A DNA stretch of 15,603 nucleotides from Boothiomyces macroporosus (lineage: Eukaryota > Chytridiomycota > Chytridiomycetes > Rhizophydiales > Terramycetaceae). Of this stretch, positions 1-15,603 are shown piece by piece (the stretch's first letter is position 1; every line of letters begins with the position of its first letter). The position numbers and the translations under genes are program-made. Location of the stretch: NCBI GenBank assembly GCA_027604185.1, contig JADGKB010000197.1, forward strand, positions 1 to 15,603, given 5' to 3'. A model generated the notes under the pieces. That model saw only the letters and a list, made by a program, of their open reading frames with translations, did not search any database and had not been told where the DNA came from.

Positions 1-525
1 GGTGGAGGTGGAGTTACTACCTTTGGAGGCGGAGGTGGTGAATTTACAACAGCTGGCTTATTTCCAGAATCAACAAGAAGTTGCTTTAAATTGGATAGAC
101 TTGCGACGGAGCTTGGAATAGATCCTGTCAATTTGTTGTTTTTTAGGTTTAGCATTTGGAGGTTCTGCAGGTTACTCCATTGGGTTGGGACATTTCCAGT
201 AAATCCATTATTCGATAAATTAATACTTTGGCAGCTTTTCAGGTTTCCAAGTTCAGGTGGAAGTTTGCCATTTAGCCCATTTCCAGACAAATCTATGGAA
301 TTGAGTTTAGTTAGTTTGCTAATCGAGGCTGGTAAACTTCCGACGATTAATGGGTTGTCTGTAATTGACCTTTAGTTAAATAATTGCTTACACATGGAGG
401 ATATTCTTGTTTGAATCACATGTCACGAAGCTGTTTGTACAGCATTCAAGTAAATCCGAGGTAACGGATTCATCAGTCATCGATGGTATAACTTCATTCA
501 ACCATACATTGCAATCCACAGACAT
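1..525 (-). CDS. Plant-type leucine-rich-repeat protein with proline-rich tail (3' end outside window)
   Basis: The minus strand encodes a protein that starts at the ATG at 525-523 and stays open to the window edge, so the C-terminus is missing. Exon 1 is 392-525; a 22-nt intron at 370-391 (GTAAGC...AAAG) restores the frame into exon 2 (369 down to 1). The N-terminal cap has paired cysteines (ECC and TCD), followed by repeats of the plant/extracellular LRR type: GSLPASISKLTKL, LSGNGLNGKLPPELGNL, LSNNGFTGNVP and LKNNKLTGSIPSSVASL. After the repeats the chain becomes proline-rich (SPPPPPK, VTPPP). Such LRRs usually bind proteins or glycans at the cell surface, but I see no signal peptide from this start, so an upstream exon or a cytoplasmic location remains possible. 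A palindromic TATA box (558-569) lies 33 bp upstream of the ATG and supports this start. LRR assignment is secure; function is unknown. Confidence 0.82.
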
Positions 526-557
526 TTTCTTTTTTGAAAGTAGAAGCCCTTTTCTTT

Positions 558-569
558 GTATTTAAATAC
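558..569 (-). promoter_or_regulatory. TATA box of the LRR gene
   Basis: GTATTTAAATAC is a perfect 12-bp palindrome containing TATTTAAA, 33 bp upstream of the LRR gene's ATG (minus strand). At the usual TATA-to-start distance, transcription would begin almost at the start codon. It is palindromic, so orientation is taken from the neighbouring gene. Confidence 0.5.
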
Positions 570-889
570 AATGGGCGTTTTTTGGGTGAGCCTAAAACCA
601 TGACAGAGCCTTGCCTTTGGCACACAGGGCTGTACAGAATGAATTACGACAGTGGACCGGGTCAAGAATGATGCAAATAGAAATTGTTTAAAAATTATCA
701 GTTATGTCCAAATACTTGTTTCTATCTTTGGCGTGGTAATTTGATCCATTGATTTTTGATGTCCACACGAGACTAATGGCAATCATCTATGCAGTTTACT
801 CGGAAAAACAATTCGCAATGCAAATCGGAGCCCTTATGACTTATTTACAACCTGGTAGCGGGGATATTGTGCAGGTAGGTTTGAAATAA

Positions 890-970
890 TTTGTTGAATT
901 GAGTGTGGGGTTATCATTTGTTGAATGGAGTGTGGGGTTATCATATGTTGAATGGAGTGTGGGGTTGAAG
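890..970. repeat. Tandem repeat, 3 x 27 bp
   Basis: Three head-to-tail 27-bp units at 890-916, 917-943 and 944-970 share the core TGTTGAATGGAGTGTGGGG. Units 1 and 2 differ by one base (T/G); unit 3 departs at its second base and over its last four. It lies 60-140 bp upstream of a TATA box at 1029, so it may sit in a promoter region; there is no evidence that it is coding. Confidence 0.9.
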
Positions 971-1028
971 TTTCTACATGGGCAATTTATAAACCATTCA
1001 AGCAAGAAATTCTCTTTGAATTCCAAGC

Positions 1029-1036
1029 TATAAAAG
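1029..1036 (+). promoter_or_regulatory. TATA box, plus strand
   Basis: TATAAAAG is a textbook TATA box. The next long coding frame on this strand starts at 1273, which would give a leader of roughly 210 nt containing two short upstream open frames (1115-1135 and 1154-1258). Confidence 0.45.
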
Positions 1037-1153
1037 ATAGAAGCACTCAAAAAACACTCTATTAGATATCATTTCGAGGTCAACCAATACTTTAGATCAC
1101 TCATCAACCGCGACAATGAATACAACTACAAGGTAAATAACTACCGTTATCAT

Positions 1154-1258
1154 ATGGATTCCCGAAAGTGGTTTATGCGAATAAAGTTTCCTGATAATTA
1201 TCAGTTTCTCTGGTTACCATTTTGGGATCGCCTAGTCATCACTAAGCCACCAAAGTAA
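1154..1258 (+). pseudogene. Possible remnant of an upstream beta-repeat unit (or uORF)
   Basis: An ATG-started frame of 34 codons ends in TAA 14 nt before the ATG of the two-repeat protein, in a different frame. Its end, WDRLVITKPPK, resembles WDLVIITNPDW within repeat 1 of the downstream protein (5 of 10 positions identical, others conservative). I could find no 18-25-nt intron that joins it in frame to the downstream ORF. It could be a broken extra copy of the repeat, an upstream ORF in the leader, or chance. Confidence 0.3.
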
Positions 1259-1272
1259 ACTTTGAAATTTCA

Positions 1273-1863
1273 ATGCAAGTGTTTACTGATCAGTACCCCA
1301 ATAGAATATCGATAACGAATAATTACAGTAAACCCATCCAGGTATCATTGCTCTCCTCCTCTGACGCAGAGAACCTTAATCCGGGCCAAACGCACCAATG
1401 GAAAATTGATGAATGGGACTTGGTAATCATTACAAATCCAGACTGGCTTAAAGAAGCAATAGGTGTAGAGGGAAAGCTTGGAGTATATGTAGAAGCTGGA
1501 TCCATTTTGTTTTTCAATGAGCCAATAATTTCGATACCTAATAATGTAAAAATTTTAAACGGGAGAGACTCTAGGATTACTGTACATAACAAAACTGCCG
1601 AACATATCAAAATTTGGCTGACGTCTTGGTCTCAAGGAAAGCCGGCTGAAATCAAGCTAAATGGGATGCACTCAGAAACCTTCAAGAGAACTGGACCGGA
1701 ATTCATAGTAATTAAAGATTCTAAAGGGGTTAAATTTGGTTTTTTAATCGCTTCTGGAAGTGAAGTATTGATTAGTGACCAAATAGATATAGAAGAAAGA
1801 AAGCTGAAACGAGCTCCTTCTAGAATATTTCAACTTTTCAAATCGGCCTTTTCGGTTCGATGA
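1273..1863 (+). CDS. Unknown protein of two similar beta-rich repeats
   Basis: A 196-residue protein with no recognised catalytic motif, signal peptide or membrane segment. It contains an internal duplication: residues about 11-82 begin RISITNNYSKPIQV, and residues about 101-168 begin RITVHNKTAEHIKI. Each unit then has a Gly-rich turn, a second strand pair with W/F (EWDLVIITN versus EFIVIKDS), and a G-V/F-x-V/A-x-G-S strand (GVYVEAGSILF versus GFLIASGSEVL). This pattern predicts two small beta-sandwich domains. The C-terminus is basic (ERKLKRAPSR) and partly amphipathic. The ATG at 1273 is chosen because an in-frame TGA lies just upstream. The AATAAA poly(A) signal (1863-1868) overlaps the TGA stop. 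It is followed 92 bp later by an F-box gene on the same strand. Function unknown; a ligand- or lectin-like role would be a guess. Confidence 0.75.
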   Translation: MQVFTDQYPNRISITNNYSKPIQVSLLSSSDAENLNPGQTHQWKIDEWDLVIITNPDWLKEAIGVEGKLGVYVEAGSILFFNEPIISIPNNVKILNGRDSRITVHNKTAEHIKIWLTSWSQGKPAEIKLNGMHSETFKRTGPEFIVIKDSKGVKFGFLIASGSEVLISDQIDIEERKLKRAPSRIFQLFKSAFSVR

Positions 1864-1955
1864 ATAAATAGGTTACTTGTAATTGCTTTTCGTAGGCTTT
1901 GTTATGAAACAATTTGAAGCAGTCATAAATGGCATGACGAGGCACTTTTTCCCAG

Positions 1956-2774
1956 ATGATTAGTCAGCTTCCATACGAATTGCTAGAGGGATATATCTTT
2001 TATTACTTGAATGGAAGGGATTTGGTGAACTTATCAAACACCTGTCAAACACTGAAAGAACGACTTTACTCTATATCAATACTTGGTTCACTCCATATCA
2101 AAGCAGATGATATTTGGCCCTGCCTCACTATTACCCATCTTGGAGATAATTATACAGACCTGGCAATGATCAACTTGAAATTTCCTAAAATCTCAATCAC
2201 ATCAGTGTGGTACCCAAAGGTTTTTGACTACCTTCCATCATATTGCTTTTTGGAATGTATTTTAACGGAAACCCATTTTGAACAATTCCATCCAATAGAA
2301 AAGTTTGTGTGTCATAAACTGGTATGTAAAGAACTGTGGAACAACAACCTTGAATTGATGATGAACATGAAGCATTTGCAACAGTTGACAGTACATGCTA
2401 GTTTGGCTAATGATTCGCTCCATATACAGCAAAACATTGGTAAGATATCAAGTTTGGAAATTGATGGATTTGCTGAATGTGATTTCATTAGTCTTTGTCC
2501 ACACCTGTCAAAACTAACCACATTGAAAATCAGACACACATTGACTGATGCAGGCGCAATGGTACTTGCTGAGCATTTGCCATTCTTTCAGCTAGAATCA
2601 CTATTATTAGAGGGAAATTATCTCACTAAAGATGGACTTGCAGCAATTTCTCAAATATTAAAGAAAACAAAATTAAAGGAATTGAACCTGGTAGGAAACG
2701 AATTCGATATCACCGATCTAGAGATCCTTTTTAATGTTTTACCGTCAACTGGCCTGAACAGAGTACTAGTTTAA
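1956..2774 (+). CDS. F-box / leucine-rich-repeat protein, short form
   Basis: A 272-residue protein. Residues 1-40 are F-box-like (start MISQLPYELLEGYIFYYL, then DLVNLSNTCQTLK), the part that binds Skp1 in SCF ubiquitin ligases. After a divergent middle, residues about 185-265 form ribonuclease-inhibitor-type LRRs (LTTLKIRHTLTDAGAMVLAEHL, LESLLLEGNYLTKDGLAAI, LKELNLVGNEFDITDLEILF). The C-terminal LRRs would select the substrate; that role is known for the family, not shown here. The gene at 5941-7641 is a paralogue with the same MISQLP start and the same LRR style but 566 residues, so this copy ends soon after the LRR block. No in-frame continuation is visible before the convergent GH16 gene 16 bp downstream, so it is a short family member rather than an obvious truncation. 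AATAAA at 2777-2782 follows the stop. Confidence 0.82.
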   Translation: MISQLPYELLEGYIFYYLNGRDLVNLSNTCQTLKERLYSISILGSLHIKADDIWPCLTITHLGDNYTDLAMINLKFPKISITSVWYPKVFDYLPSYCFLECILTETHFEQFHPIEKFVCHKLVCKELWNNNLELMMNMKHLQQLTVHASLANDSLHIQQNIGKISSLEIDGFAECDFISLCPHLSKLTTLKIRHTLTDAGAMVLAEHLPFFQLESLLLEGNYLTKDGLAAISQILKKTKLKELNLVGNEFDITDLEILFNVLPSTGLNRVLV

Positions 2775-2790
2775 AGAATAAAATTGTAAA

Positions 2791-3814
2791 TCACACTCCT
2801 TTATAGTATTTGATTGAATTTACCAAAAAATATGCTGAATTAAATGCAGACTGGTTCTTTGCAAGATAGTCTGTACACGAGCCAGATATCCAAGGACAAT
2901 CAGCTTGAAAGTTTTGCATTGCCCATCCACCGCAGAAATTCAAGTTCAAAATCATTTGATGGCCACTAAAATATGAAGAATCACAATTCTGGCCGAACGA
3001 GTAGTGTATAAATGAACCGTTTGTTGGCCACGTTAATGGGTGTGGGTTGTTGCTACTGAGGTCAGCGGGAATATTGCTCCTTGGAAAAAACCATACTTTG
3101 ATACCTCCCTCGTTATTCGGCACCCATTCCATTGCATATATACCACCTTGATTTTTGTTGAATGGATCGCCATAAGTGATTGGGTTATTCATACTAGATC
3201 CACATCCTTGCTGCTGCCTATTACAATCAACCAACTTGTTATTGATTTGCACATAGCATCCAGGGTTTGTATGCAGGGTAACTGTATTTCCTCCGTAGCC
3301 ATTTATCCCTTCTAATATATCAATTTCACCATTCGTAGGCCACTAGATTAGCAGAAGTTTACGTTGGCACCGACACTCCAAAAGGCTGGCCAAGTACCAC
3401 ATCCACTAGGAATGTGAGAGCTAAATCAAATAAAATGTACCTGTCAAACAGCCACAACCCACCAGTGAATCTTTCAGGCGTATACAATCTTATGCTATTA
3501 GGGCTACCGTTCATTACTTGCTGTGCTCCAATATACAACTGGTTGTCCTGTACTTTGAACATTCCAAGTGATAATGCCTGGCTGCGTGAAACATAGTTTG
3601 CACTTCCTTGTGATAGATCTGACGGATTTGTGGTTGTAAACTGCCAATCGCTTCCATTGAAAATGCTGTTGGCATCATAGGATCTGTAGAGATAGTAATT
3701 GCGCACAGTATACCTTGATCTCCCAAGATAAAAGACTGCGCCGATCAGTAGCGATAATGAAAATAATATTAAGATGGTAATCCACACTTTGTAATTTGTT
3801 TGCTTTTTAACCAT
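2791..3814 (-). CDS. GH16 endo-1,3(4)-beta-glucanase, N-terminal membrane anchor
   Basis: Three exons on the minus strand, 3441-3814, 3363-3420 and 2791-3342, separated by two 20-nt introns (3421-3440 GTACAT...ATTTAG; 3343-3362 GTAAAC...ATCTAG), give 327 residues. Splicing restores the conserved fungal GH16 core: SGCGTWPAFWSVG, WPTNGEIDILEG, TLHTNPGCYV, and later GGIYAMEW, IKVWFFPRSNIPADL and FCGGWA. The catalytic ExDxxE motif is intact (E150, D152, E155: nucleophile, assisting acid and acid/base in this family). Residues about 9-30 form one hydrophobic segment after a lysine-rich start, most likely a type II membrane anchor, so the enzyme would act on cell-wall or external beta-glucans from the membrane or after secretion. 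ATG at 3812-3814; stop TGA. It is divergent from the transporter gene with 55 bp between start codons and convergent with the F-box gene. Confidence 0.93.
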
Positions 3815-3869
3815 CGTTGAAGTTGAGTGATAATCGCCACTTGAAGCTTAATTTTTTTCGTAAAAAGAA
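3815..3869. promoter_or_regulatory. 55-bp divergent intergenic region (GH16 / DASS transporter)
   Basis: Only 55 bp separate the two start codons, so both 5' leaders and core promoters must lie here or inside the opposite coding regions. The strip is T/A-rich near the transporter start. I see no clear TATA box. Confidence 0.45.
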
Positions 3870-5488
3870 ATGGACAGTGAAACGAGTCCTCTGCTTCCCA
3901 ATATTACACACACAACGGTAAAAAATAGGAGAATTAGAGATTATTTAATGAAGCATTTGGATGATATTAGACTAGTGTGTTGCGTTATTTTAGCAGCCGT
4001 AGTGTGGAATTTGGAAATTGAAGGGTTGCATCCTAGTGCGGTGCAAACCTTGGCTGTATTCTTGTCTGTTATGGTTTCAATAATGGTTACGGACTACCCA
4101 ATAGCGATATTGACAGGGTTGGCGCTGTGTGTGTTGGTACTTGGAAAAGCTATGGATTGCGAAACCATGGAAGGAAAATGGGTAGAATGTAAAATGTGTG
4201 GTATAGAAAATTGTGATCCTTATGAAGTGATTATTGTTTAATTTAGGCTGGATTTAAAACAGCTTTGTCTGGGTTTGGACATCCTATTGCCTGGATGATT
4301 TTATGTGCCTTTCAATTGGGGCAGGCAGTTGAAGTATATTAGTATTAAACTCAAGAGCACACTACTTGGAAGGAGAATCGCGCTGGTTTTGATGCGATAT
4401 ATGGGAAACAAACTATACAGCTTGGGATTAGCAATATTCCTCTCAGAGTTTCTCCTTGCTCCATTTGTTCCTTCAAATACAGCAAGAGGAGGGGGTATAA
4501 TATTGCCAATTGTAATGTCACTTGTCAACTCTTTGGAATCATCTCCTGTTCATAAACCAGAGATTGGAAGGTATCTAATCCTTTGTGGAGCTCATGCTAA
4601 TTTATTAATCTCATCATTTTTCGTAACTGGAGCTTCGCCCAATCCAGTAATTGTAGGAACTGCGCATAAAGTGCTCAATATCAACTTCAACTTTTTTACT
4701 TGGACGCTGGGAGCATTTGCACCTGGGATAGTTAGTTTAATTGCAGTTTCATCATATATTTATTGGACAATTAACGCAGAGTATGATGGAGAAAGAGTGG
4801 TTGAAGAGGCTGGAGCTCAGTTGGAGCGAATGGGTCCTCTCTCTCTAAAAGAAACACAGTTGATCTTTGTGTTATGCTCTTCCCTAATTTTGTGGATGAC
4901 TGGGAGCTGGACGGATATTCCAGAAACTTTTGTTGCATTTTTAGCGCTAGTCACTCTTTTATTATTAGGAACACTTGGATGGGACGAAGTTTGCAAAAAC
5001 TATAAAGGTATTTTTAGATTTATATAGCCTGGGACTGCTTCTTTTGGCTGGCTGCAATGTTGGTGATGGCTGAGCAACTAGCCCAGCTCGGTGTTGCTAC
5101 TTACCTTGGATCAACTTGTGCTTGGCTTATAGGACATGTTACCAGCTCTCCCATTGTATCAGCAATGCTACTAGCCAGTTTGTATTTCATTACAATGTAC
5201 TTTTTTTCTTCAATAACTGGCCATGCAGTAGCACTCAGCGGACCGTTTTTAGCAGCGGGACATTCAATGGGATGTTCCCCTTGGCTAACAACGGCATTAT
5301 TAGCTTACTTTTCATCCTTATCTGCAACATTAACACACTTTTCAACTGGCACTGTTGTATTGTACTTTGCGCAAGGCTACTTTACTACCACAAAGTGGTT
5401 TTCAATTGGAACAGTAATTGCTGTTATATATTTAGGTGTATACTTTACGGTGGGAATGGTTTGGTGGAAGTTGCTGGATTTCTACTAG
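3870..5488 (+). CDS. DASS-family (CitT / SLC13-like) di- or tricarboxylate transporter
   Basis: Four exons, 3870-4226, 4247-4333, 4356-5007 and 5028-5488, are separated by introns of 20, 22 and 20 nt and encode 518 residues. Each join restores a family motif: AGFKTALSGFG, VE-STLLGRRIAL, and AWDCFFWLAAMLVMAEQLAQLG. The first substrate/sodium signature is PSNTARGGG (S188-N189-T190). The second half carries SATLTHFSTGTVVLYFAQGY and ends GMVWWKLLDFY, the pattern of bacterial CitT and plastid oxoglutarate/malate translocators rather than animal SLC13. Multiple hydrophobic segments fit an 11-14-helix membrane protein exchanging or co-transporting carboxylates such as citrate, succinate or malate; substrate and membrane cannot be read from the sequence. 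The N-terminus has a dileucine-like SPLLP before the first helix. An unusual Cys-rich loop (CETMEGKWVECKMCGIENC) precedes intron 1. The stop TAG is followed by AATAAA at 5491-5496. Confidence 0.92.
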
Positions 5489-5715
5489 ATAATAAATTAA
5501 GGATTACTAATGAATATAAAGAATCATTTATTAATACTTTCTTTTGATTGTATTTGATTTGTTATTTCTAGGTTGAAATCCGATTGAATCGTAGCAGAAA
5601 GAGCCGAGAAATTCTATTCAAACTATTTTGATCCAAGAAATTCAAGTATAACAACACATTCAGCTTAAATAAATTACAATTTAGTTGATATAGCGCTAGC
5701 CAAATGGCTTTCCAA

Positions 5716-5787
5716 GCCCGGCTAGCTCAATGGTAGAGCGTGAGACTTTTAATCTCAAGGTTGGGGGTTCGAGTCCCCCGTCGGGCT
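5716..5787 (+). tRNA. tRNA-Lys (anticodon UUU)
   Basis: A complete intronless cloverleaf: acceptor GCCCGGC pairs with GTCGGGC (one G-U), D arm GCTC/GAGC, anticodon stem TGAGA/TCTCA around loop CTTTTAA (anticodon TTT), T arm GGGGG/CCCCC around TTCGAGT, discriminator T. The internal A box (TAGCTCAATGG) and B box (GGTTCGAGTCC) for RNA polymerase III are present. CCA is not encoded, as usual in eukaryotes. Confidence 0.96.
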
Positions 5788-5793
5788 AGCTTG

Positions 5794-5803
5794 TTTTTTT
5801 TTT
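5794..5803 (+). terminator. RNA polymerase III terminator of tRNA-Lys
   Basis: A run of ten T residues begins 6 nt after the discriminator base of the tRNA, the standard Pol III stop signal. Confidence 0.85.
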
Positions 5804-5940
5804 CAAATGCTTGTTGAACTGTAGAAAGACTTTTTATGGAAACTTTAATAATCTCAAGGAAAGCATGGTTCCAACCAATTAATCGAACTTACCCTTAATT
5901 TTTACTTTATCGCCGAAAAAGTTGACTTTGCAATCTACAA

Positions 5941-7641
5941 ATGATCAGCCAACTTCCACCCGAAATCTTGTACGCCATAATGGAATACGTTGAAGGACCG
6001 GATTTGCTCTTCTGGTCATTGGCAAACAAATTGTTTTACCAAAAGTTTTCGTTATTCCGAAAGTTGCACAACTTAAAAGTTACCAAATTCTGGCCCTCAC
6101 TCCATCTGTATTGCGACCCCAGTTCGAAATATTACTTTATGTACCCGGATTCTGATAAGGACAATAGGAAGTTACTGATTCAGCTTTTTGATATATTTGA
6201 TCACTGTCCATTCATTTTCCATCACGTTTATATTGGCTCGCAAATGTTCATCAAAGTAGCAGACCGATTACCAAGAAATAAATACCTCCATCTGGTGATT
6301 GAAACCAACACCGATTATGAAGAGCTGGGCAATGTTTTGGAAAAGGATGTCGTGTCACACATATTTATCAATGAATACTTTGAAGATAACGAAACAATGA
6401 TAATTTTACGACATATGCAAAAGCTAAAGAGGTTGAATACTTTAGAACTGGACTATTACCTACCATATGGAGGGGGATACGATGATGAAACAGATATCGA
6501 TTCAAAGATATTGAAGGATTTGATCCCGCATTCATCAATCAAACAGCTGTCGCTCGTAGAACGATGCGTGTCAGAATACGGAGCCTCCCTGCTCGCTTCT
6601 CAACTTCAATTTACATTGATAACCAAGCTGGATTTGACTGGAAATTGCATCAAAGACCAAGGTGCAATAGCAATTGCCAAAGAGTTACCCCGCACTTTTA
6701 TTACTGACTTGAAGTTGGGCAGTAACCATATTACAGGGCAAGGTGCTACGGCTATTGCTGAAGTGCTCCATCAGTCATCGGTAATCGAATTAAATCTTTC
6801 TTCCAATGAAATTAGTAGTGCAGGATTAAAAAGTCTTGCAGGATCATTAAAAAAATCCAAACTAAAGCGTCTATTCATCTATGACAACCAATTTTCGACG
6901 GATCAACTTTATATCTTGTTTGAAAGTCTACCTGGATCTCAAATTGAATATCTAAGCTTTTCAGAATTCAAAGACCAAAAGACTATTGATTCCTTTAACG
7001 CTAATCTCTGGAAATCGAATTTGAAGACCATTCATTATCAAACTGCTACAAATGGTTTAAAAGAACTTTTGGAATCAGCTTGCAAATCAAAGTTGGAAGT
7101 CATGTCCATTCAAGGTAGTGAAATCAAATATGGAGACGAAGAAGCAGCAATTATTGGCAATTACATCAATAAGCTTCCAATACATACACTTAACTTGCAT
7201 AATTCGGCAATGAGCACCAATGGATTGAATTTTTTGTTTAAAAATCTGACATCCAAGACACTCAAAACGCTAAGGATAAACCAAAGGGAATATGACCGGT
7301 TCGATTCGGCGGGTATTCATGAAGTTTTTAAGCATTTGGGGCATACCCATTTAACCAACCTTTCAATAGAGGGAACGGCTCTTGATGATGAATTTCTTTG
7401 TGGAATCGCGGACGGGATAATCGGATCTCGTCTTCGTCAGCTAAGTTTATCTAGGAATGCTGGATTTACCGTGCAGGGTATTTTGAATTTTACAAAATTA
7501 ATGTTAAAATCAAAACTATCCATACTTTTATTTGACTATTGTATTCAACAGAAAGCAGTGGATGATGAAACCAAAAAGAAACTCAGGGAGATATTGTTTG
7601 GGTCTAATTTGCATTTCAGAGGATTATTCATCAATAAATAA
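5941..7641 (+). CDS. F-box / leucine-rich-repeat protein, long form
   Basis: An intronless 566-residue protein. Residues 1-40 are F-box-like (MISQLPPEILYAIMEYVEG, DLLFWSLANKLFYQ), followed by a lineage-specific stretch and then ribonuclease-inhibitor-type LRRs: about 197-320 (ITKLDLTGNCIKDQGAIAIA, ITDLKLGSNHITGQGATAIA, VIELNLSSNEISSAGLKSLA) and a second, more degenerate block at about 400-520 (IHTLNLHNSAMSTNGLNFLF, LTNLSIEGTALDDEFLCGIA, LRQLSLSRNAGFTVQG). By family knowledge it is a candidate substrate receptor of an SCF ubiquitin ligase, with the F-box contacting Skp1. The paralogue at 1956-2774 shares the start and LRR type but lacks about 290 C-terminal residues. The last two codons AAT AAA (7633-7638) form an AATAAA signal abutting the stop. 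The substrate is unknown. Confidence 0.85.
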   Translation: MISQLPPEILYAIMEYVEGPDLLFWSLANKLFYQKFSLFRKLHNLKVTKFWPSLHLYCDPSSKYYFMYPDSDKDNRKLLIQLFDIFDHCPFIFHHVYIGSQMFIKVADRLPRNKYLHLVIETNTDYEELGNVLEKDVVSHIFINEYFEDNETMIILRHMQKLKRLNTLELDYYLPYGGGYDDETDIDSKILKDLIPHSSIKQLSLVERCVSEYGASLLASQLQFTLITKLDLTGNCIKDQGAIAIAKELPRTFITDLKLGSNHITGQGATAIAEVLHQSSVIELNLSSNEISSAGLKSLAGSLKKSKLKRLFIYDNQFSTDQLYILFESLPGSQIEYLSFSEFKDQKTIDSFNANLWKSNLKTIHYQTATNGLKELLESACKSKLEVMSIQGSEIKYGDEEAAIIGNYINKLPIHTLNLHNSAMSTNGLNFLFKNLTSKTLKTLRINQREYDRFDSAGIHEVFKHLGHTHLTNLSIEGTALDDEFLCGIADGIIGSRLRQLSLSRNAGFTVQGILNFTKLMLKSKLSILLFDYCIQQKAVDDETKKKLREILFGSNLHFRGLFINK

Positions 7642-8678
7642 CTTGTAACTTTACATAACCAACACGTGGTGAATTAATTTGGGGATGTAGGGTCAGTCTC
7701 TGGCAGTCAGATGATTAAGTCTTGGACATCGTAAATATCTGCATGCTAATGAACCGTACTGAAATCAAAGACTGATCAATCAAATACAGATATCCAAGCT
7801 GTGTTGTTAATCTGATTTATTTACTGTAAAATTTTTGTTTTCGAGAAACGGGTGTTGGAACGTGCAACGAAACGTTTTTCATATATCTATAAAACTGTAA
7901 AAGATGGGGCCAGGCCGTCTGGAAAGTCGGGATACAACGAATCTTGAAGCTGCTAAATCTTGAACAACTCAATATTTATTCGATTCGTTTTGTAAAGTTG
8001 TTTCCAATCAGTAGTGTAAATAGTAAAAGTGCTTTTCATTACATCCATACAGTTTATTACTTCTTTTAGATCAAAGTCTTGTGAGGCTGTACACTCTGCC
8101 GTGGTCTCTTGAAATGGAAGCGGGAACAACGCATACTACCACAAGTGTCTGTTCTTGGCTAACTGAATACGGCTGTTCACAATTTTTTAATAGTGATACA
8201 AGATTCAAGAAATATTGTTTAAATATTTGACAATTCAAGACATATTATCATGATGATATGCCTATAATGACTTTGCAAATACTGTTTTTATCAAGTCTGT
8301 GCATAGAGCCCAGGCCATGCAGTAATTCATCCCCTCGATAAAAATCTAGGGCAATCTCTTTGGTAAGATCTGGGTTCATTGGATGACCTACCGCGAGAGT
8401 CTAACCCACGCTCCACAAGACTTGGATTTTCATACAAATGTTGATGTTAAACTCTATACTTTGAAATTTATATGGTAAAAACAAAAATGTCATACTCAAA
8501 ATGTACAGCATTCATAGGGAAAATCAATGATAAATTGATCATAAAGAGATCTCTGTTCTAATTAGGAGACCCGTACTTTTTTCAGGTATCTGGGTAACAT
8601 TGAAGAAACGTGGACGGTGAACAGAAACGTTTACAAGGAATCCACATATTTAAAGAGCTGGATTTCCCAATTCTCACA
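7642..8678. other. About 1 kb without a recognised gene
   Basis: This is the longest non-genic stretch in the window. I checked both strands and recognise no protein family, tRNA or repeat array. Open stretches exist (for example 8027-8230 on plus, 67 codons with an ATG only at 8114) but carry no motif. AT-rich palindromic sequence (AAATATT...AATATTT) occurs near 8210-8228. The right end holds the TATA box of the RNase T2 gene. A non-coding RNA or fast-evolving small gene cannot be excluded. Confidence 0.55.
8647..8654 (+). promoter_or_regulatory. TATA box of the RNase T2 gene
   Basis: TATTTAAA lies 32 bp upstream of the RNase T2 ATG (8679). With normal spacing, transcription would begin within a few bases of the start codon, giving a very short leader. 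Confidence 0.55.
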
Positions 8679-9240
8679 ATGCTCACTCTTCTCTTTTCTT
8701 CTGCTCTAGCTATCCCATCTACTTTAGTCAAGCGCAACTACATGGATTGCTCATCTGCTCCATACTGCGGGTAATTATTATTAATCTAGTCTCCTTGTAT
8801 TGGAAACTGGAAATGGAAGTGGAAATTACAACCATCCTACTCCAGCTGTTCATGGATTATGGCCTGAAACTGGTCGTTATGGTAACTCTGGATGTGTTGG
8901 TGGTTCAAAGAGTGCTAGTATCCCAAATGTATCTTGCTACAATGACTACAGCTTCCAAGAACATGAATGGACTGCTCATGGTGTTTGCGCAGCTGCTGAT
9001 CCAGATACTTTTTTCAACACTGTTTGCAATTTGAGCAGTGCTCCACTTCAAATGATGGCTGACTTGAACAGCCAAGGTTACAGCATTGACGACATTGCTT
9101 CTCAATTGGGTAGCAATGGATATCCTGTCTTTAACATTGATTACAACAATGCTCAAATTGAACTCTCTGTCTGTGCTGGTAGTGATGCCGTATGGCAAAT
9201 CGCTGATGTATCTCAATTTGACAGCGTTTGCAACTATTAA
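8679..9240 (+). CDS. Secreted ribonuclease T2
   Basis: Two exons, 8679-8770 and 8790-9240, separated by a 19-nt intron (GTAATT...AATCTAG), encode 180 residues. The N-terminus MLTLLFSSALA is a short signal peptide, followed by a Lys-Arg (residues 18-19) that could be a Kex2-type processing site. Both catalytic blocks of the family are present: CAS I VHGLWPE (H52) and CAS II HEWTAHGVC (E90, H94). RNase T2 enzymes cleave single-stranded RNA through 2',3'-cyclic phosphates and act in vacuoles or outside the cell. Seven cysteines remain in the mature region, in line with a disulfide-bonded secreted enzyme. At 180 residues it is smaller than typical fungal T2 enzymes (about 220-280). The start is the only ATG giving a signal peptide. 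AATAAA (9239-9244) overlaps the stop. It is convergent with MRPL16. Confidence 0.93.
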
Positions 9241-9412
9241 TAAACCATCTAGAATTTATTTTCTATTGACAAGTGAGCCTTTATTAGGCTTAGAGAAGGA
9301 ATTCCATCTTCATCTCGCGTACAGACCTGTAATTGTACCGATAAACAATAATTCACACAATGAACTCATTAAACCTTTTGCACTCAAATTCCAATCAATA
9401 GTAAACAAATAT

Positions 9413-10005
9413 TTATTTCAATTCTTTAATCTTTTGCTGATATTCATTCTCCTTCAATCTGTTGAGTATAAAGGAAGGTAAAACTCTTGGCGCCATTCTC
9501 ATTTCATCTTTCTTGACAATTCTAGTTCTAATTGGCAAGAACTGCTTTGCAATATCCAACGCTTTCTCGGCCAATTCTGGTCTAGCTCCTTTTACTTCAA
9601 ACAAGACTCTTCCTTCCGCAATCCACTGTGCGAAATAATCAACAGGTCCTTTTGTTAGAAATGAATACCTTTTCCTTTACCCATACGCACTTCTAGTGGT
9701 TTAGCTGTGACTGGTCTGTCTGGAAATACTCTCATTATTAGTGACGCTGTCTTTTCCTGTTTCAAAAATCTGCGAAGTGCTTGGCGAACAACATCCATTT
9801 GCTTATCACTTAACCTTCCGCCTTCAATAGCTTGTAATCCATAATCACCAAAGTATACGGTTGTTGATTTGATAGAGTCTGTTGGAGAACGGAATATTCC
9901 TTTGAATGCTTTCTTGTTTTTTAGTTTCTTTGGTCTGTAGTTGGCTACCGCTGTTCTGATTTGCGAAAATGTCGGTTGAAATAGCTTTACTCTGAGGTTG
10001 AACAT
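9413..10005 (-). CDS. MRPL16: Mitochondrial large-subunit ribosomal protein uL16m (L16)
   Basis: Two exons on the minus strand, 9669-10005 and 9413-9648, separated by a 20-nt intron (9649-9668, GTATTC...ACAAAAG), encode 190 residues. The join restores the hallmark EVRMGKGKGPVDYF, and other L16 signatures are STTVYFGDYGLQA, RRFLKQEKTASLIMRVFPD and GRVLFEVKGARPELAEKAL. The protein binds 23S-type rRNA near the peptidyl-transferase centre of the mitochondrial ribosome. Residues 1-35 (MFNLRVKLFQPTFSQIR, then KKLKNKK) are basic and free of acidic residues, as expected for a mitochondrial targeting sequence. ATG at 10005-10003 is chosen; the frame stays open to about 10047 but with no ATG there. AATAAA (9412-9417) overlaps the TAA stop. 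A 13-bp tandem repeat begins 45 bp upstream of the start. Confidence 0.94.
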
Positions 10006-10049
10006 TTTCTGATTGTTGAAATTTTTTTTTGGAAATGCAACATACAAAC

Positions 10050-10097
10050 GTGAGTCGCTTTGGTGAGTTGCTTTGGTGAGTTGCTTTAGTGTGTTGC
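10050..10097. repeat. Tandem repeat, about 3.7 x 13 bp, upstream of MRPL16
   Basis: Units GTGAGTCGCTTTG (10050-10062), GTGAGTTGCTTTG (10063-10075), GTGAGTTGCTTTA (10076-10088) and a partial GTGTGTTGC (10089-10097). It begins 45 bp upstream of the MRPL16 start codon, so it would lie in the leader or core promoter of that minus-strand gene. Confidence 0.85.
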
Positions 10098-10210
10098 ATT
10101 GATGTGATTAGAATTACATACTAGGGATAATGATTCAGGTGAGCTTTTGAAATTGTAATTATTGATTGGTGAACAAAGTAAACAAGATAATTGAATATTG
10201 ATTTCTATCT

Positions 10211-10543
10211 TTATTGATTAACCCAACACCTATTTACAATCGCCATTGGAACATCCTGGTATTCCCCTCCATCAAACTCCTTTTCCAACTTGATTTCGTT
10301 TTCTTCCAACCCAGGAGTGATCATGAGATTATAACTGCAATAGAATAAGATAGTGAACGGAATGAGCAGAAACAAATAAAGCGGCACCGTAATTGCATAA
10401 ATTTTGCTTGGGTAGTAAGTGGTGATTTGGTTCAAATAAATACTGGGAACAAAAGCCCAGACCAGGTAAAAAATCAAGAGCATGATTGTAGAGACGTACA
10501 GAATGAACCCATAGCTCTCCCTAGCAGAGGTTTGTTCTTCCAT
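10211..10543 (-). CDS. PIG-P / Gpi19, subunit of GPI-GlcNAc transferase
   Basis: An intronless 110-residue membrane protein with the PIG-P domain: ESYGFILYVSTIMLLIFYLVWAFVP forms the first transmembrane helix, and TTYYPSKIYAITVPLYLFLLIPF plus FYCSYNLMITPGL forms the second with the conserved YYP motif between. The C-terminal YQDVPMAIVNR matches the family's short terminal motif. PIG-P belongs to the endoplasmic-reticulum complex that transfers GlcNAc from UDP-GlcNAc to phosphatidylinositol, the first step of GPI-anchor synthesis; it is a non-catalytic subunit. Length fits the small fungal forms. The ATG at 10541-10543 is only 18 bp from the divergent AP-1 sigma ATG. The AATAAA signal (10210-10215) contains the stop codon. 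Confidence 0.93.
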   Translation of the reverse strand: MEEQTSARESYGFILYVSTIMLLIFYLVWAFVPSIYLNQITTYYPSKIYAITVPLYLFLLIPFTILFYCSYNLMITPGLEENEIKLEKEFDGGEYQDVPMAIVNRCWVNQ

Positions 10544-10561
10544 AAAAAATTCAATCGCGAA
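10544..10561. promoter_or_regulatory. 18-bp divergent start-codon spacer (PIG-P / AP-1 sigma)
   Basis: Only 18 bp separate two start codons pointing away from each other. Both starts are supported by family alignment ([14 protein letters not shown] for sigma, short N-terminus for PIG-P). The transcripts must therefore either be nearly leaderless or overlap each other's coding sequence. Confidence 0.6.
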
Positions 10562-11048
10562 ATGGCGATAAAATTCTTGCTGCTAGTATCAAGACAAGGG
10601 AAAATCAGGTTGACGAAATGGTTTACTTCCGACTGGTCGATAAAGGAAAAGACCAAAGTCGTTAAAGATGTTTCAACAACTGTTCTGCAACGAAAGACGA
10701 AAATGTGTAATGTGCTGGAATTCAAAGAGTTTAAAGTGGTGTATAGAAGGTAGGATTGTCTAACAAGGTATGCGAGTTTGTTTTTTATCGCTGGAACCGA
10801 TGTTGACGAGAATGAATTGTTGGCGTTGGAGGTAATTCACAGATACGTGGAAGTGCTTGACAAGTGGTTTATGAATGTATGTGAACTGGATATAATTTTT
10901 AATTTTCAACAAGCGTATGCGATCATTGATGAAGTGTTGATTGCTGGTAAAATGCTTTAATTTAGGTGAATTACAAGAGAGCAGCAAGAGGGTTGTGTTG
11001 AGTACGTTAAAGAGACAAGACGAAACTATAAAGGAAGCTAATCAATAA
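10562..11048 (+). CDS. AP-1 clathrin adaptor complex, sigma subunit
   Basis: Three exons, 10562-10749, 10768-10946 and 10966-11048, separated by introns of 18 nt (GTAGGATTGTCTAACAAG) and 19 nt (GTAAAATGCTTTAATTTAG), encode 149 residues. The protein follows the sigma-adaptin pattern throughout: [80 protein letters not shown] and [13 protein letters not shown]. It is a small subunit of the AP-1 complex that recruits clathrin at the trans-Golgi and endosomes. [11 protein letters not shown] and the KVVYRRYAS block favour AP-1 over AP-2, AP-3 or COPI zeta, though AP-2 sigma is the main alternative. Exon 3 is small and ends about 8 residues earlier than animal homologues. AATAAA (11044-11049) contains the stop codon. 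Confidence 0.94.
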
Positions 11049-12031: not shown

Positions 12032-12190
12032 TTTGGGTAAAGAATACCAAGCACTAATGAAAATGGATTCAAATAAGAAAATTTGGATCAGTTAATTGAA
12101 TAAGCAAGACAATTAGTGTACTACTTACCGATTACCAATATAATAGGTGAGCCAACCACTTTGCAAACCGGCTCCGAAAGTTTACAAAAA

Positions 12191-12733
12191 ATGTCCACAG
12201 TCGCAGTACAATTAGCTCAAGAAAGACACTTGCCTCAAATCCTTCAATTATCAAAGATCAATAATAAAAACAATTTAACACCAGAAGAACAGTCCGAAGG
12301 ATTCACAACTGCAGAATACTCTTTGGATTTCATGAAGCAACTACACGCAGAGACTCCAGCAATAGTAGCGCTAGACAACGATAAAGTAGTTGGATATGTG
12401 ATTGCCGTTCCTAAACACTTGGCTGCTCATCATCCGCTGTTAGAAGACATGGTAAATCAAATCGATCAGAACCAATACAAGGATTTTAAAAATATGGATT
12501 ATATTGTTGTTGGACAATTGTGTGTCGCTAAAGATTACCGTGGAATGGGATTAGTGCCAAAAATGTACAGCCAATTAAAGACTGAGTATCAGCGATATGA
12601 TTGCGCTGTTACCGATATTGATCAGAGGAACATTAGATCAAAGAAAGCTCACTTGAAATCAGGGTGGAAGACCTTTGGAGAGATTACGTTCAGCGGTATT
12701 CAATTTGAATTGATTATCCAAGAATTTCACTAA
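12191..12733 (+). CDS. GNAT-family N-acetyltransferase, copy 1
   Basis: A 180-residue intronless protein with the GNAT fold: beta-strand IVALDNDKVVGYVIAVPKH, then VVGQLCVAKDYRGMGLVPKMY, where YRGMGL (residues 116-121) is the acetyl-CoA pyrophosphate-binding loop (motif A, R/Q-x-x-G-x-G/A), and a C-terminal NIRSKKAHLKSGWKTFGE block typical of the beta6-beta7 region (N-x-x-S-x-x-x-H-x-x-x-G-W/F). The enzyme should transfer an acyl group from acyl-CoA to an amine; the acceptor is unknown. The ATG at 12191 is chosen because it aligns with the start of the downstream paralogue; the frame is open to 12116 but has no earlier ATG. AATAAA (12732-12737) overlaps the stop. It forms a tandem pair with 12984-13520, with roughly 55 percent identity by eye. 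Confidence 0.9.
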   Translation: MSTVAVQLAQERHLPQILQLSKINNKNNLTPEEQSEGFTTAEYSLDFMKQLHAETPAIVALDNDKVVGYVIAVPKHLAAHHPLLEDMVNQIDQNQYKDFKNMDYIVVGQLCVAKDYRGMGLVPKMYSQLKTEYQRYDCAVTDIDQRNIRSKKAHLKSGWKTFGEITFSGIQFELIIQEFH

Positions 12734-12818
12734 TAAAAACAATCGAGATTTGAGGCATCGGATTATTTAGTACTGCCTTTTAAACACATTAGATTGGCTC
12801 TATTTAATGATTACAAAA

Positions 12819-12954
12819 GTAGTTTCTATATACCCACTTTATTCAATTCCTAGTAGTTTCTATATAACCACTTTATTCAATTCCTAGTAGCTTCTATATA
12901 ACCACTTATTAAATTGCTAGTGGTTTCTATATATAACCCCTTATTCAATTTCTA
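12819..12954. repeat. Tandem repeat, 4 x about 34 bp, each with a TATA-like core
   Basis: Four units at 12819-12852 (34 bp), 12853-12886 (34), 12887-12919 (33) and 12920-12954 (35). The core reads GTAGTTTCTATATAACCAC, followed by TTTATTCAATTCCTA. Every unit contains TATATA or TATATAA. The array lies between the two GNAT genes and ends 29 bp before the ATG of copy 2, so it occupies that gene's core promoter. Confidence 0.92.
12928..12936 (+). promoter_or_regulatory. Best TATA box candidate for GNAT copy 2
   Basis: TATATATAA in the last repeat unit lies 56 bp upstream of the ATG at 12984. The three upstream repeat units carry similar TATATA(A) cores that could serve as alternative start-site selectors. 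Confidence 0.45.
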
Positions 12955-12983
12955 TTTGAAAAAAGTTTCCAAATCTCTTTGAA

Positions 12984-13520
12984 ATGAGTCAAATTGGAAA
13001 AGCTCAACCTCACCATTTACCCCAAATCCTACACTTGTCTTTTATCAATAACAAAAAGAATTTATCTCCAGAAGAATTAGCAGGAGGCTTTACTACTGCA
13101 GAATACAGTCTAGAATTCTTACAGCAACTACAAAAAGAAACTCCCCCAATCGTAGCCCTAGATAATGACACAGTAGTAGGGTATATAATTGTAAGTCCAA
13201 AGCATTTATCCAACGGCCATCCTTACTTGATTGAATTTGTGGATAAAATTGAAAACAAGGATTACAAGGATTTCAAAAAACTGCAATATCTTTTAATTGG
13301 TCAGCTGTGTATAGCAAAAGAATTTAGAGGAAAAGGACTGGTGAATAAAATGTATGCTGCAATGGAAGAGGAGTACAAGGATTTTGATTGTGCTATTGCT
13401 GATGTCGATTTGAAAAACGAACCGTCTAGAAGGGCTCATTATAAAGCTGGATGGAAAGTATTTGGAGAGGATATGTATGGTGGTGTTCCTTGTGAGTTTA
13501 TCATTAAAGAATTTCATTAA
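12984..13520 (+). CDS. GNAT-family N-acetyltransferase, copy 2
   Basis: A 178-residue intronless paralogue of the preceding gene. It shares HLPQILHLS, GFTTAEYSLEF, IVALDNDTVVGYIIVSPKHL, the CoA-binding loop FRGKGL (residues 114-119) in LIGQLCIAKEFRGKGLVNKMY, and the EPSRRAHYKAGWKVFGE block. All structural landmarks of an active GNAT enzyme are present; the acceptor is unknown. The two copies differ mainly between residues 75 and 100 and after the motif A helix, where acceptor specificity often lies in this fold. Unlike copy 1 it lacks an AATAAA at the stop codon, and its promoter consists of the 34-bp TATA-bearing tandem array, so the copies are probably expressed differently. Confidence 0.9.
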   Translation: MSQIGKAQPHHLPQILHLSFINNKKNLSPEELAGGFTTAEYSLEFLQQLQKETPPIVALDNDTVVGYIIVSPKHLSNGHPYLIEFVDKIENKDYKDFKKLQYLLIGQLCIAKEFRGKGLVNKMYAAMEEEYKDFDCAIADVDLKNEPSRRAHYKAGWKVFGEDMYGGVPCEFIIKEFH

Positions 13521-13940: not shown

Positions 13941-13942
13941 AT
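13919..13942 (+). promoter_or_regulatory. Perfect inverted repeat overlapping the GPCR start codon
   Basis: ATCAAGATT (13919-13927) and AATCTTGAT (13934-13942) are exact 9-bp inverted arms with a 6-base loop. The right arm includes the A and T of the ATG at 13941, so an RNA hairpin would bury the start codon. It is AT-rich and therefore weak. Confidence 0.45.
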
Positions 13943-14924
13943 GGCTTTCACTGCAAACCAACTTGAAATCCTTAACGTCATAGTAAAGATATCAGCGTCA
14001 TTGGGTGTGATTGGATTTACCCTTGTATCTTATCAGTTTATAAAGTATAACAGTGAATTCAAATCTGCGATGGGAAAAATAGTGATCGTATTGGCTTTAG
14101 GAGATTTGATGGATTCTTGTGTTAAAGCTATTGGGCCCATAGGATACTCGTGGGGAACAGAAACTGCACTTTGCCAGTTTCAAGGTAGTGTGATTCTATT
14201 CGCAAACAACTCTTCAATATTCAATAGTTTAACGATTGGCTTATGGGCTGTATATCTAACGTACTTTAATGGTGATGTAAAGTACATTTTACGGAACGAT
14301 TATAAATTTATTGGGGTTAATCTATGTATTGCTTGCACATTCGCACTCTTGGCTGCACTACTACCTCCAAGCTCATACCAAAGTAAAACACACATGATTG
14401 GAAATGCGGACTTATGGTGCTTTATCAGTAGCAAGTTTGTATTCTATCAAATGTTTCTGCAGTTCATCTGGGTATTCATTGTCACTTTCTTGAACACAAT
14501 CTTTATCTTACTGACATGGAGGTTTTCAGCCTGTACACACATGGGGCAAAGATCTAGACACACCAAAGCATTCATAACAAGACTGCTATATTATCTAGCA
14601 GCGTTCTTGATTGTATGGATTCCCATTACCATTAACCGAATGGTGGTTGCAGCTACTGGAAACAGTTATTTCATACTAGCAGTCATTCAAGCAATGGTTT
14701 CTCCATCTAGAGGATTTTACTACGCGCTTGCGTTTATTCTATCAAAGGGAGCATCGTCCGCTCCCACACTGAATGAATCGACGTCACAAATTAGTAAAGC
14801 AAACGAGTCAAGCTACCCAAACTCAAGTAGAATTGTAGATGTAAATAATCCAGATAACAGTGCTGTTGAACAGTACGAAAATATCTTTGAAATTGACCAG
14901 TACTTTAATAAACCATTTGTATAA
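13941..14924 (+). CDS. Seven-transmembrane receptor, cAMP-receptor-like (class E-like GPCR), copy 1
   Basis: A 327-residue intronless protein with seven hydrophobic segments: about residues 8-34, 43-65, 78-106, 122-141, 165-195, 215-240 and 248-270. Family-type landmarks are LALGDLMDSCV in TM2, a cysteine (ALCQFQG) before TM3 and the DLWCFIS segment before TM5 (likely disulfide partners), a basic loop (GQRSRHTKAF) before TM6, IVWIPITINR in TM6 and SPSRGFYYALAFIL in TM7, resembling Dictyostelium cAR and related fungal receptors. The cytoplasmic tail is Ser/Asn-rich, suited to phosphorylation. It should signal through heterotrimeric G proteins; the ligand is unknown. The first ATG in frame is at 13941. 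A second copy begins at 15372. AATAAA (14907-14912) lies inside the last codons. Confidence 0.87.
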   Translation: MAFTANQLEILNVIVKISASLGVIGFTLVSYQFIKYNSEFKSAMGKIVIVLALGDLMDSCVKAIGPIGYSWGTETALCQFQGSVILFANNSSIFNSLTIGLWAVYLTYFNGDVKYILRNDYKFIGVNLCIACTFALLAALLPPSSYQSKTHMIGNADLWCFISSKFVFYQMFLQFIWVFIVTFLNTIFILLTWRFSACTHMGQRSRHTKAFITRLLYYLAAFLIVWIPITINRMVVAATGNSYFILAVIQAMVSPSRGFYYALAFILSKGASSAPTLNESTSQISKANESSYPNSSRIVDVNNPDNSAVEQYENIFEIDQYFNKPFV

Positions 14925-15371
14925 TGCAAAGCTCAGCAAAGAGTACCGAGAAATAATGTGTAATCTTTGCAAGAGTGGATTATGATAAAATATGTTCACT
15001 TTGGCACGACCTATATTAAAGGTGCAATTAACATCAATCTGTTTGGAATGTGACCAATTCAATATGATCATAAGTTACTTGTACATTCACCGCCACCATC
15101 CCAATCTAAGCTGTGGGGGTTACCAGTAGAAAGCCAAAGATGGGCTGAATCGGCCGTTGGAAAAATACCTAGATTGTCGTAATTGTGCGCTGCATCCAAT
15201 CGCGATCGTCAAAACTGGCAAAAAGATATTACATTTTCAATGCTGTAAAAGTTTAACATCATTCTTATATTTGATAATCTATAATTGCACAATAAAAGTT
15301 TGGGTAAAGTTTTTGCCACATGTCGCCTCAAAATGGGTTTCATATATATAGCACCCATCTTAATCTAGGGC
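14925..15371. other. Intergenic region between the two GPCR genes
   Basis: No gene is recognised on either strand. It contains the 14-base GTCGCCTCAAAATG (15322-15335) followed by TTTCAT and a TATATATA run (15343-15350) shortly before the ATG of copy 2. The shared 14-mer also lies 60-75 bp before the ATG of copy 1, so the two promoters probably share ancestry. Confidence 0.5.
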
Positions 15372-15603
15372 ATGGGATTTACAATCCAAGAAGTCCAGGC
15401 ACTAAACATTATTGTAAAAATATCTGCCGTGCTGGGTATATCTGGTTTCTGCATGCTTCTCCATCAGTTTATTCATTACCGCCACGAGTTTCAATCTGCA
15501 ATGGGGAAAATAGTGATTGTACTGGCTTTAGGAGATTTGATGGATTCCTGTGTTAAAGCTATTGGGCCCATAGGATACTCGTGGGGAACAGAAACTGCAC
15601 TTT
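15372..15603 (+). CDS. Seven-transmembrane receptor, copy 2 (3' end outside window)
   Basis: The frame opens at the ATG at 15372 and runs off the right edge, covering 77 codons: the N-terminus, TM1 (LNIIVKISAVLGISGFCMLL) and TM2 (AMGKIVIVLALGDLMDSCV). The first 45 or so residues are only moderately similar to copy 1 (for example GISGFCMLLHQFIHYRHEFQ versus GVIGFTLVSYQFIKYNSEFK). From SAMGKIV onwards the two proteins are identical to the window end, and the DNA differs at only five synonymous positions, with the last 55 bases identical. This abrupt change suggests gene conversion after tandem duplication. Function as for copy 1; whether the missing remainder is intact is unknown. Confidence 0.85.
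   Translation, partial: MGFTIQEVQALNIIVKISAVLGISGFCMLLHQFIHYRHEFQSAMGKIVIVLALGDLMDSCVKAIGPIGYSWGTETAL

Follow-up and report, generated by a model that had tools for sequence, protein, structure and literature searches.

In the chytrid Boothiomyces macroporosus, introns appear to have been reduced to a uniform length of about 20 nucleotides (nt). The starting point is the 15,603-nt stretch at positions 1-15,603 of contig JADGKB010000197.1 (assembly GCA_027604185.1), hereafter the window, in which six genes are interrupted by ten segments of 18-22 nt. We propose that these segments are introns of the ordinary U2 spliceosomal type, in the nucleus of a Boothiomyces-like chytrid whose introns have shrunk throughout the genome to a sharp length mode of 19-22 nt, and we put the probability of this reading at roughly 95%.

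A preliminary description of the window had listed ten introns of 18-22 nt, each beginning with GT, ending with AG and restoring a reading frame when removed. All ten were borne out when the segments were excised by script: each has the form GT...AG, their lengths along the window are 22, 20, 20, 20, 22, 20, 19, 20, 18 and 19 nt, and an open frame is regained in 6 of 6 genes. At the level of sequence, then, the observation of 20-nt introns is confirmed. Eight of the ten junctions are also spanned by alignment to homologous proteins. Both introns of a GH16-type glucanase gene on the minus strand (intron 2 at 3343-3362 and intron 1 at 3421-3440, 20 nt each) fall where the protein is contiguous with protein P0241 of Terramyces sp. 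JEL0728 (84% identity). As a correction to the GH16 assignment of the preliminary description, the protein matches no Pfam family at E 0.001, though its relatives are annotated PF26113 and several are called endo-1,3(4)-beta-glucanase. On the plus strand, a DASS symporter gene (Pfam Na_sulph_symp, PF00939, over residues 35-515) carries introns of 20, 22 and 20 nt at 4227-4246, 4334-4355 and 5008-5027, and all three junctions are spanned by homology (the Pfam match and the deposited relative described below). The 20-nt intron of a uL16 gene, presumably mitochondrial, lies on the minus strand at 9649-9668 and is crossed by a contiguous alignment to a uL16 chain, and those of the AP-1 sigma adaptin gene (plus strand; intron 1, 18 nt, 10750-10767; intron 2, 19 nt, 10947-10965) are crossed likewise by chain Q of structure 1w63. 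For the two remaining introns the basis is frame and splice signals: no junction-spanning homology was obtained for the 22-nt intron at 370-391 (minus strand) in an LRR protein gene that is cut by the window edge, and the 19-nt intron at 8771-8789 (plus strand) belongs to an RNase T2 gene whose Pfam match (residues 76-127) lies downstream of the junction without reaching it, and whose protein has no match in the PDB at E 0.001. The Pfam families matched by the spliced window proteins are LRR, Na_sulph_symp, Ribonuclease_T2, Ribosomal_L16 and Clat_adaptor_s.

Segments spliced out here are also absent from proteins deposited for relatives. Along its whole length, the product of the spliced DASS gene shows 97% identity to HDV04_000311 (P0001) of another strain, Boothiomyces sp. 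JEL0838, and the second-best match, from Globomyces pollinis-pini, is 62% identical. The JEL0838 model reads NCDPYE-AGFKT, GQAVE-STLLG and CKNYK-AWDCF across the three junctions, exactly as splicing produces here, and so omits the same three introns. With Isy1 also 96% identical to the JEL0838 protein, the source, judged by protein identity, is a Boothiomyces-like chytrid, a genus placed in the Terramycetaceae (Rhizophydiales). Ultra-short introns are already implicit in publicly deposited gene models.

The pattern extends to genes beyond the window. Introns of 19-21 nt also occur in the genes for farnesyl-PP synthase (4), importin beta (3) and alanine-glyoxylate aminotransferase (2), and 9 of 9 junctions in these three genes are crossed by alignment to solved structures. 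All four junctions in farnesyl-PP synthase are ungapped; one importin beta junction and both aminotransferase junctions have a gap of 1-3 residues no more than about five residues away. On contigs C2 and C49, outside the stretches sampled below, the gene for U2AF2 needs introns of 19, 20, 19 and 19 nt, with a fifth possible at the N-terminus, an L24-like gene needs introns of 19 and 20 nt, and the gene for Cwc25 needs one of 21 nt.

We surveyed intron lengths in 215.6 kb, made up of the window and the initial 20 kb from each of ten further contigs, or about 1.4% of an assembly of 15.2 Mb in 216 contigs. When open frames of at least 60 codons were joined across GT..AG, 43 joins fell at 20 nt, compared with 2-16 in five false-site controls. 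A gene finder that uses GT, AG and coding statistics without any motif, and that permits introns of 12-30 nt, placed 88 of its 106 introns at 19-22 nt; with false splice sites the same range received 11 of 52, 8 of 61 and 9 of 52. Given a flat length prior from 12 to 300 nt, the finder's choices of 18-23 nt numbered 54 with true sites and 5, 6 and 5 with three false-site pairs. When a donor and branch motif were required, 62 of 90 introns were 18-23 nt long, and false donors gave 5 of 71, 1 of 48 and 3 of 68. Finally, a frame-blind count of the pattern GTAA..YTAAY-N(2-4)-AG yielded 24 matches at 19 nt, 30 at 20 nt and 11 at 21 nt, with none at 18 nt and three at 23 nt. The sample therefore has a sharp mode at 19-22 nt, below the value of about 25 nt that we take as the upper bound for an ultra-short-intron genome, and the idea of a fungal gene set with a mode near 20 nt is upheld here and in the U2AF2, Cwc25 and L24-like genes elsewhere. 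Over the 119,880 coding bases of the gene finder, these 88 introns amount to 0.7 per kb, which is a lower bound. Scaling the roughly 79 introns that the gene finder places above control suggests about 5,500 introns genome-wide, and scaling the frame-blind count, with a background of about 8 and 28 of 97 introns fitting the strict motif, suggests about 15,000; both figures are rough.

Together with the ten of the window, 87 predicted introns make up a set of 97 distinct sequences of 18-22 nt, whose overall form is GTAA..YTRAY-N-AG. Position +3 is A in 87% and position +4 in 67%, and interior G+C is 23%, compared with 39% in unselected GT..AG stretches. A YTRAY motif 1-5 nt from the AG is present in 65% of the introns and in 7.3% of 6,678 unselected 18-22-nt GT..AG stretches; for the full form GTR plus YTRAY-N(1-5)-AG the figures are 62% and 4.9%. 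A complete YTRAY was scored in 68 introns; 55 of these have their putative branch A at nucleotide 14 or 15, and in 57 it precedes the final base by 5-6 nt. The stretch from the 5' site to the branch is T-rich (38-54% T per position), and there is no space for a pyrimidine tract 3' of the branch. By sequence, the introns carry the marks of the U2 type, with GT-AG ends, a 5' site matching U1 and a branch motif complementary to the GUAGUA of U2.

The machinery to read such signals is encoded in the same genome, where we looked for U1, U2, U6, U2AF2, SF1, Cwc25 and Isy1. The recognition sequences of all three RNAs are canonical in the predicted genes. U1 begins with AUACUUACCUG and has the recognition sequence ACUUACCUG; two diverged U2 genes (L023 and L024, on contigs C80 and C178) both carry the canonical branch-recognition sequence GUAGUAUC, and GUGUAGUAUC, with GUAGUA, is found at 2 of 2 loci; U6 carries ACAGAGA. 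Matches to SF1 (SF1-HH), Cwc25 and Isy1 exceed their cut-offs. The N-terminal GGG plug of Cwc25 is intact (MGGGDLNLKKSWHP) and identical to that of the CWC25 homolog in 5yzg, which we take to be a human structure. Cwc25 is matched with equal score on two contigs (L030 and L031, on C49 and C100), possibly as haplotype copies or a recent duplication. The profile of the LisH_TPL domain, as in SMU1, has a match; RED_N gave no profile match in the genome, but control searches with the same tool were equally silent. The preliminary description had foreseen an unusually compact spliceosome geometry. That geometry is suggested by the anatomy of the introns, and the part of the machinery that recognizes them looks ordinary in its RNA sequences.

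We hypothesize that splicing would proceed as follows. U1 would pair with GTAA(G/T) at the 5' end, and the YTRAY motif would be read by SF1 and then by U2, making nucleotide 14-15 the branch A. The 3' AG would then be chosen 5-6 nt past this base. So short a distance cannot hold a pyrimidine tract beyond the branch, and the role of such a tract may fall to the T-rich sequence that separates the 5' site from the branch. The product would be a lariat with a loop of 14-15 nt and a tail of 5-6 nt. Both the branch point and the hold of the active site on so tight a loop are putative features of this scheme.

How the active site accommodates such a loop could have a special explanation. In the ciliate Stentor coeruleus, whose introns are 15-16 nt long with the branch A at nucleotide 10 of 15, the Cwc25 plug is lost and the Isy1 N-terminus is non-conserved (PMC9505925). 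The route proposed there is a remodelling of branching factors that reach into the active site; a similar change, acting here through the Isy1 N-terminus, would fit the loop, and we regard it as unlikely though worth weighing. In its favour, Isy1 of the Boothiomyces type begins MAPKTLAQKQE-ANILKKYD, as opposed to the MARNEEK-QSML-RFR form that our alignment finds in Fimicolochytrium, Thoreauomyces, Basidiobolus and P0123 (JGI code Hompol). We read Hompol as Homolaphlyctis. However, Isy1 of Globomyces also departs in part from the standard form (MANNQKEKQKSVVHRFRE), and the first exons of the Boothiomyces gene are uncertain, with our first model (a 22-nt first intron) and the deposited one (49 nt) differing by 9 residues. 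The intact Cwc25 plug means that the solution proposed for Stentor is not required here, and since the loop is 14-15 nt rather than 10-11, less remodelling may be needed.

Several observations weigh against ordinary U2-type introns compressed genome-wide. Removal of the segments in the cell is deduced from DNA, and the deposited gene models that agree with it may themselves be computed. None of the ten window introns was recovered by the gene finder, which indicates low sensitivity. A branch motif of any form is unrecognizable in 15 of the 97 introns. In the frame-blind count, the 69 matches at 18-22 nt compare with 30, 12, 9 and 6 for four altered patterns, and the pattern scoring 30 is the one in which the true donor was kept. 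Similarly, a true donor combined with an altered branch motif still placed 27 of 44 (reversed) and 17 of 45 (complement) introns at 18-23 nt, so that either the branch motif is not strict or genuine introns are still picked up by its altered versions. The U1 match, at 68.8 bits, is slightly below its gathering score of 69.5, and that of U2AF2 is 230.7 bits against a curated cut-off of 310.3. The latter shortfall probably arises because the gene was scored unspliced; spliced U2AF2 reads through as a single protein.

The remaining difficulties concern the word "all". ISY1 (L033, contig C39) needs a 46-nt intron (GTAAGT...CTAATGTTAG) to keep its frame, and a first intron of 49 nt fits the deposited protein; with both removed, 240 of 241 residues match the JEL0838 model. 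In the DASS gene, the 36 nt at 3918-3953 (plus strand, near the N-terminus) run from GT to AG with TTAAT near the end, and are in frame and stop-free. The 12 residues they encode are missing from the JEL0838 protein (P0001), and if they too are removed, 501 of 506 residues are identical to it. This eleventh intron is uncertain; introns that are in frame and free of stops are hard to detect without RNA. The statement that no longer intron is needed thus holds for the window, with the reservation that the DASS gene may have this one, and the preliminary picture of an entire gene set with introns near 20 nt was right about the mode and overstated in its reach, as the deposited models contain introns of 36, 46 and 49 nt. 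A minor class of 36-49 nt probably exists.

It is a larger step, and in our judgement a quite improbable one, to suppose that the short introns exist beside a large class of ordinary fungal introns of 50-100 nt that the window happens to lack. Beyond the ISY1 and DASS models, this idea can draw on the motif-required analysis, in which the true donor and motif yielded 9 introns of 36-50 nt and the altered branch motifs 3 and 5. Under false donors, however, the same range gave 15, 5 and 12. With the flat prior, 22 introns of 41-100 nt compare with 44, 40 and 48 for the three false-site pairs, and 100 of 101-300 nt with 77, 109 and 96, so that neither range is in excess. The strict motif is no commoner at 33-60 nt than in four controls (8.0 per five lengths against 10.2-16.8), and some of the long picks enclose a verified short intron, such as a 44-nt pick in farnesyl-PP synthase. 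A local coding-score test aimed at longer motif-bearing introns was too weak to help (10 of 19 at 18-23 nt; controls 0 of 12, 7 of 16 and 6 of 24). As none of the three length analyses (flat prior, motif-required and frame-blind) revealed a clear excess above 23 nt, we rejected a large long-intron class. That the segments are unspliced assembly indels, frameshifts in pseudogenes or recoding sites is scarcely credible, and we rejected assembly error and pseudogenes in particular: every segment has GT..AG, a branch motif is common to the majority of the 97 introns, the lengths peak sharply, conserved housekeeping genes are interrupted, and the three DASS segments are missing from the protein of a different, 97% identical strain.

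Compressed U2-type introns in a chytrid have counterparts elsewhere. The preliminary description names ciliates, chlorarachniophyte nucleomorphs and a few reduced genomes as the main settings for lengths near 20 nt, and tiny-intron genomes have been described in ciliates, algal relict nuclei and mikrocytids (PMC9505925, PMC10245619). As in Stentor, the introns are uniform, tiny, A+T-rich and of the GT-AG type, with a GTA start and conserved U2 and U6 recognition sequences; the tail length matches (the branch A is 5 nt from the end there), and the loop here is about 4 nt longer. Unlike those of Stentor, they are 19-22 nt long with the branch A at 14-15 instead of 10-11, show a clearer YTRAY, occur with an intact Cwc25 plug and belong to a fungus (PMC9505925). 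The length range is nearly identical to the 18-21 nt of chlorarachniophyte nucleomorphs (cited in PMC10245619 and PMC12316389), but a nucleomorph is a relict endosymbiont nucleus with about 300 genes, whereas this is a 15.2-Mb fungal genome. Mikrocytos mackini likewise has numerous introns confined to a very narrow span of lengths, 16-17 nt, yet it is a parasite with a highly reduced spliceosome (PMC10245619), and here U1, U2, U6, U2AF2, SF1, Cwc25 and Isy1 are all found. Trichomonas also has short introns, the shortest 23 nt, with the branch motif near the 3' end, but T. vaginalis has 63 active introns and here thousands are estimated (PMC12316389). That 2025 paper describes a 23-nt intron as "among the shortest known", the only comparable cases that it names being those of Stentor (15) and Bigelowiella (18).

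Introns of other fungi are also of the U2 type with GT-AG ends. In length they differ: a survey of 644 fungal genomes treats the 63-bp mean of Cryptococcus neoformans as "relatively short", against about 20 nt here. For Chytridiomycota, represented by two species, it gives 3.9 introns per kb (PMC8476143), to be set beside our lower bound of 0.7. A paper on Batrachochytrium and its relatives reports intron counts (PMC5364385). In the literature that we searched, which mostly did not extend to subscription papers, there was no report of introns near 20 nt in any fungus. A fungus is an unexpected lineage in which to find an ultra-short-intron genome. We tentatively suggest, at somewhat less than even odds, that a chytrid lineage shrank nearly all of its thousands of introns to about 20 nt without giving up the canonical recognition sequences of U1, U2 and U6, or U2AF2, SF1 and the Cwc25 plug. 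This would make it the first such fungus, and a case of tiny-intron splicing without a Stentor-like loss of the plug, perhaps by way of the Isy1 N-terminus.

A fungus with introns near 20 nt would make the minimum geometry of splicing testable, including the loop, the tail and the need for U2AF, Cwc25 and Isy1, and would allow comparison with relatives that presumably have ordinary introns. Culture is possible for chytrids, and transformation for some of them. There is also a practical consequence: many genes of this fungus will be missed or broken by alignment and gene-prediction programs that set the shortest allowed intron at 20-30 nt.

Other features of the window can be noted briefly. Positions 1-952 are 100% identical to C169:20853-21804, possibly an unmerged contig end or a haplotype overlap. 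A tRNA gene at 5716-5787 (plus strand, 72.4 bits) has the anticodon loop CTTTTAA, which by eye suggests lysine (TTT). Also by eye, two tandem acetyltransferase-like genes occupy 12190-13520, with direct repeats of a tagtttctatataaccactttattcaattcc-like unit between them at about 12815-12950, and tandem genes resembling seven-helix receptors lie at 13941-14924 and 15300-15603, the second truncated by the window end. The two receptor-like genes share near-identical DNA at about 14070-14175 and 15500-15603.

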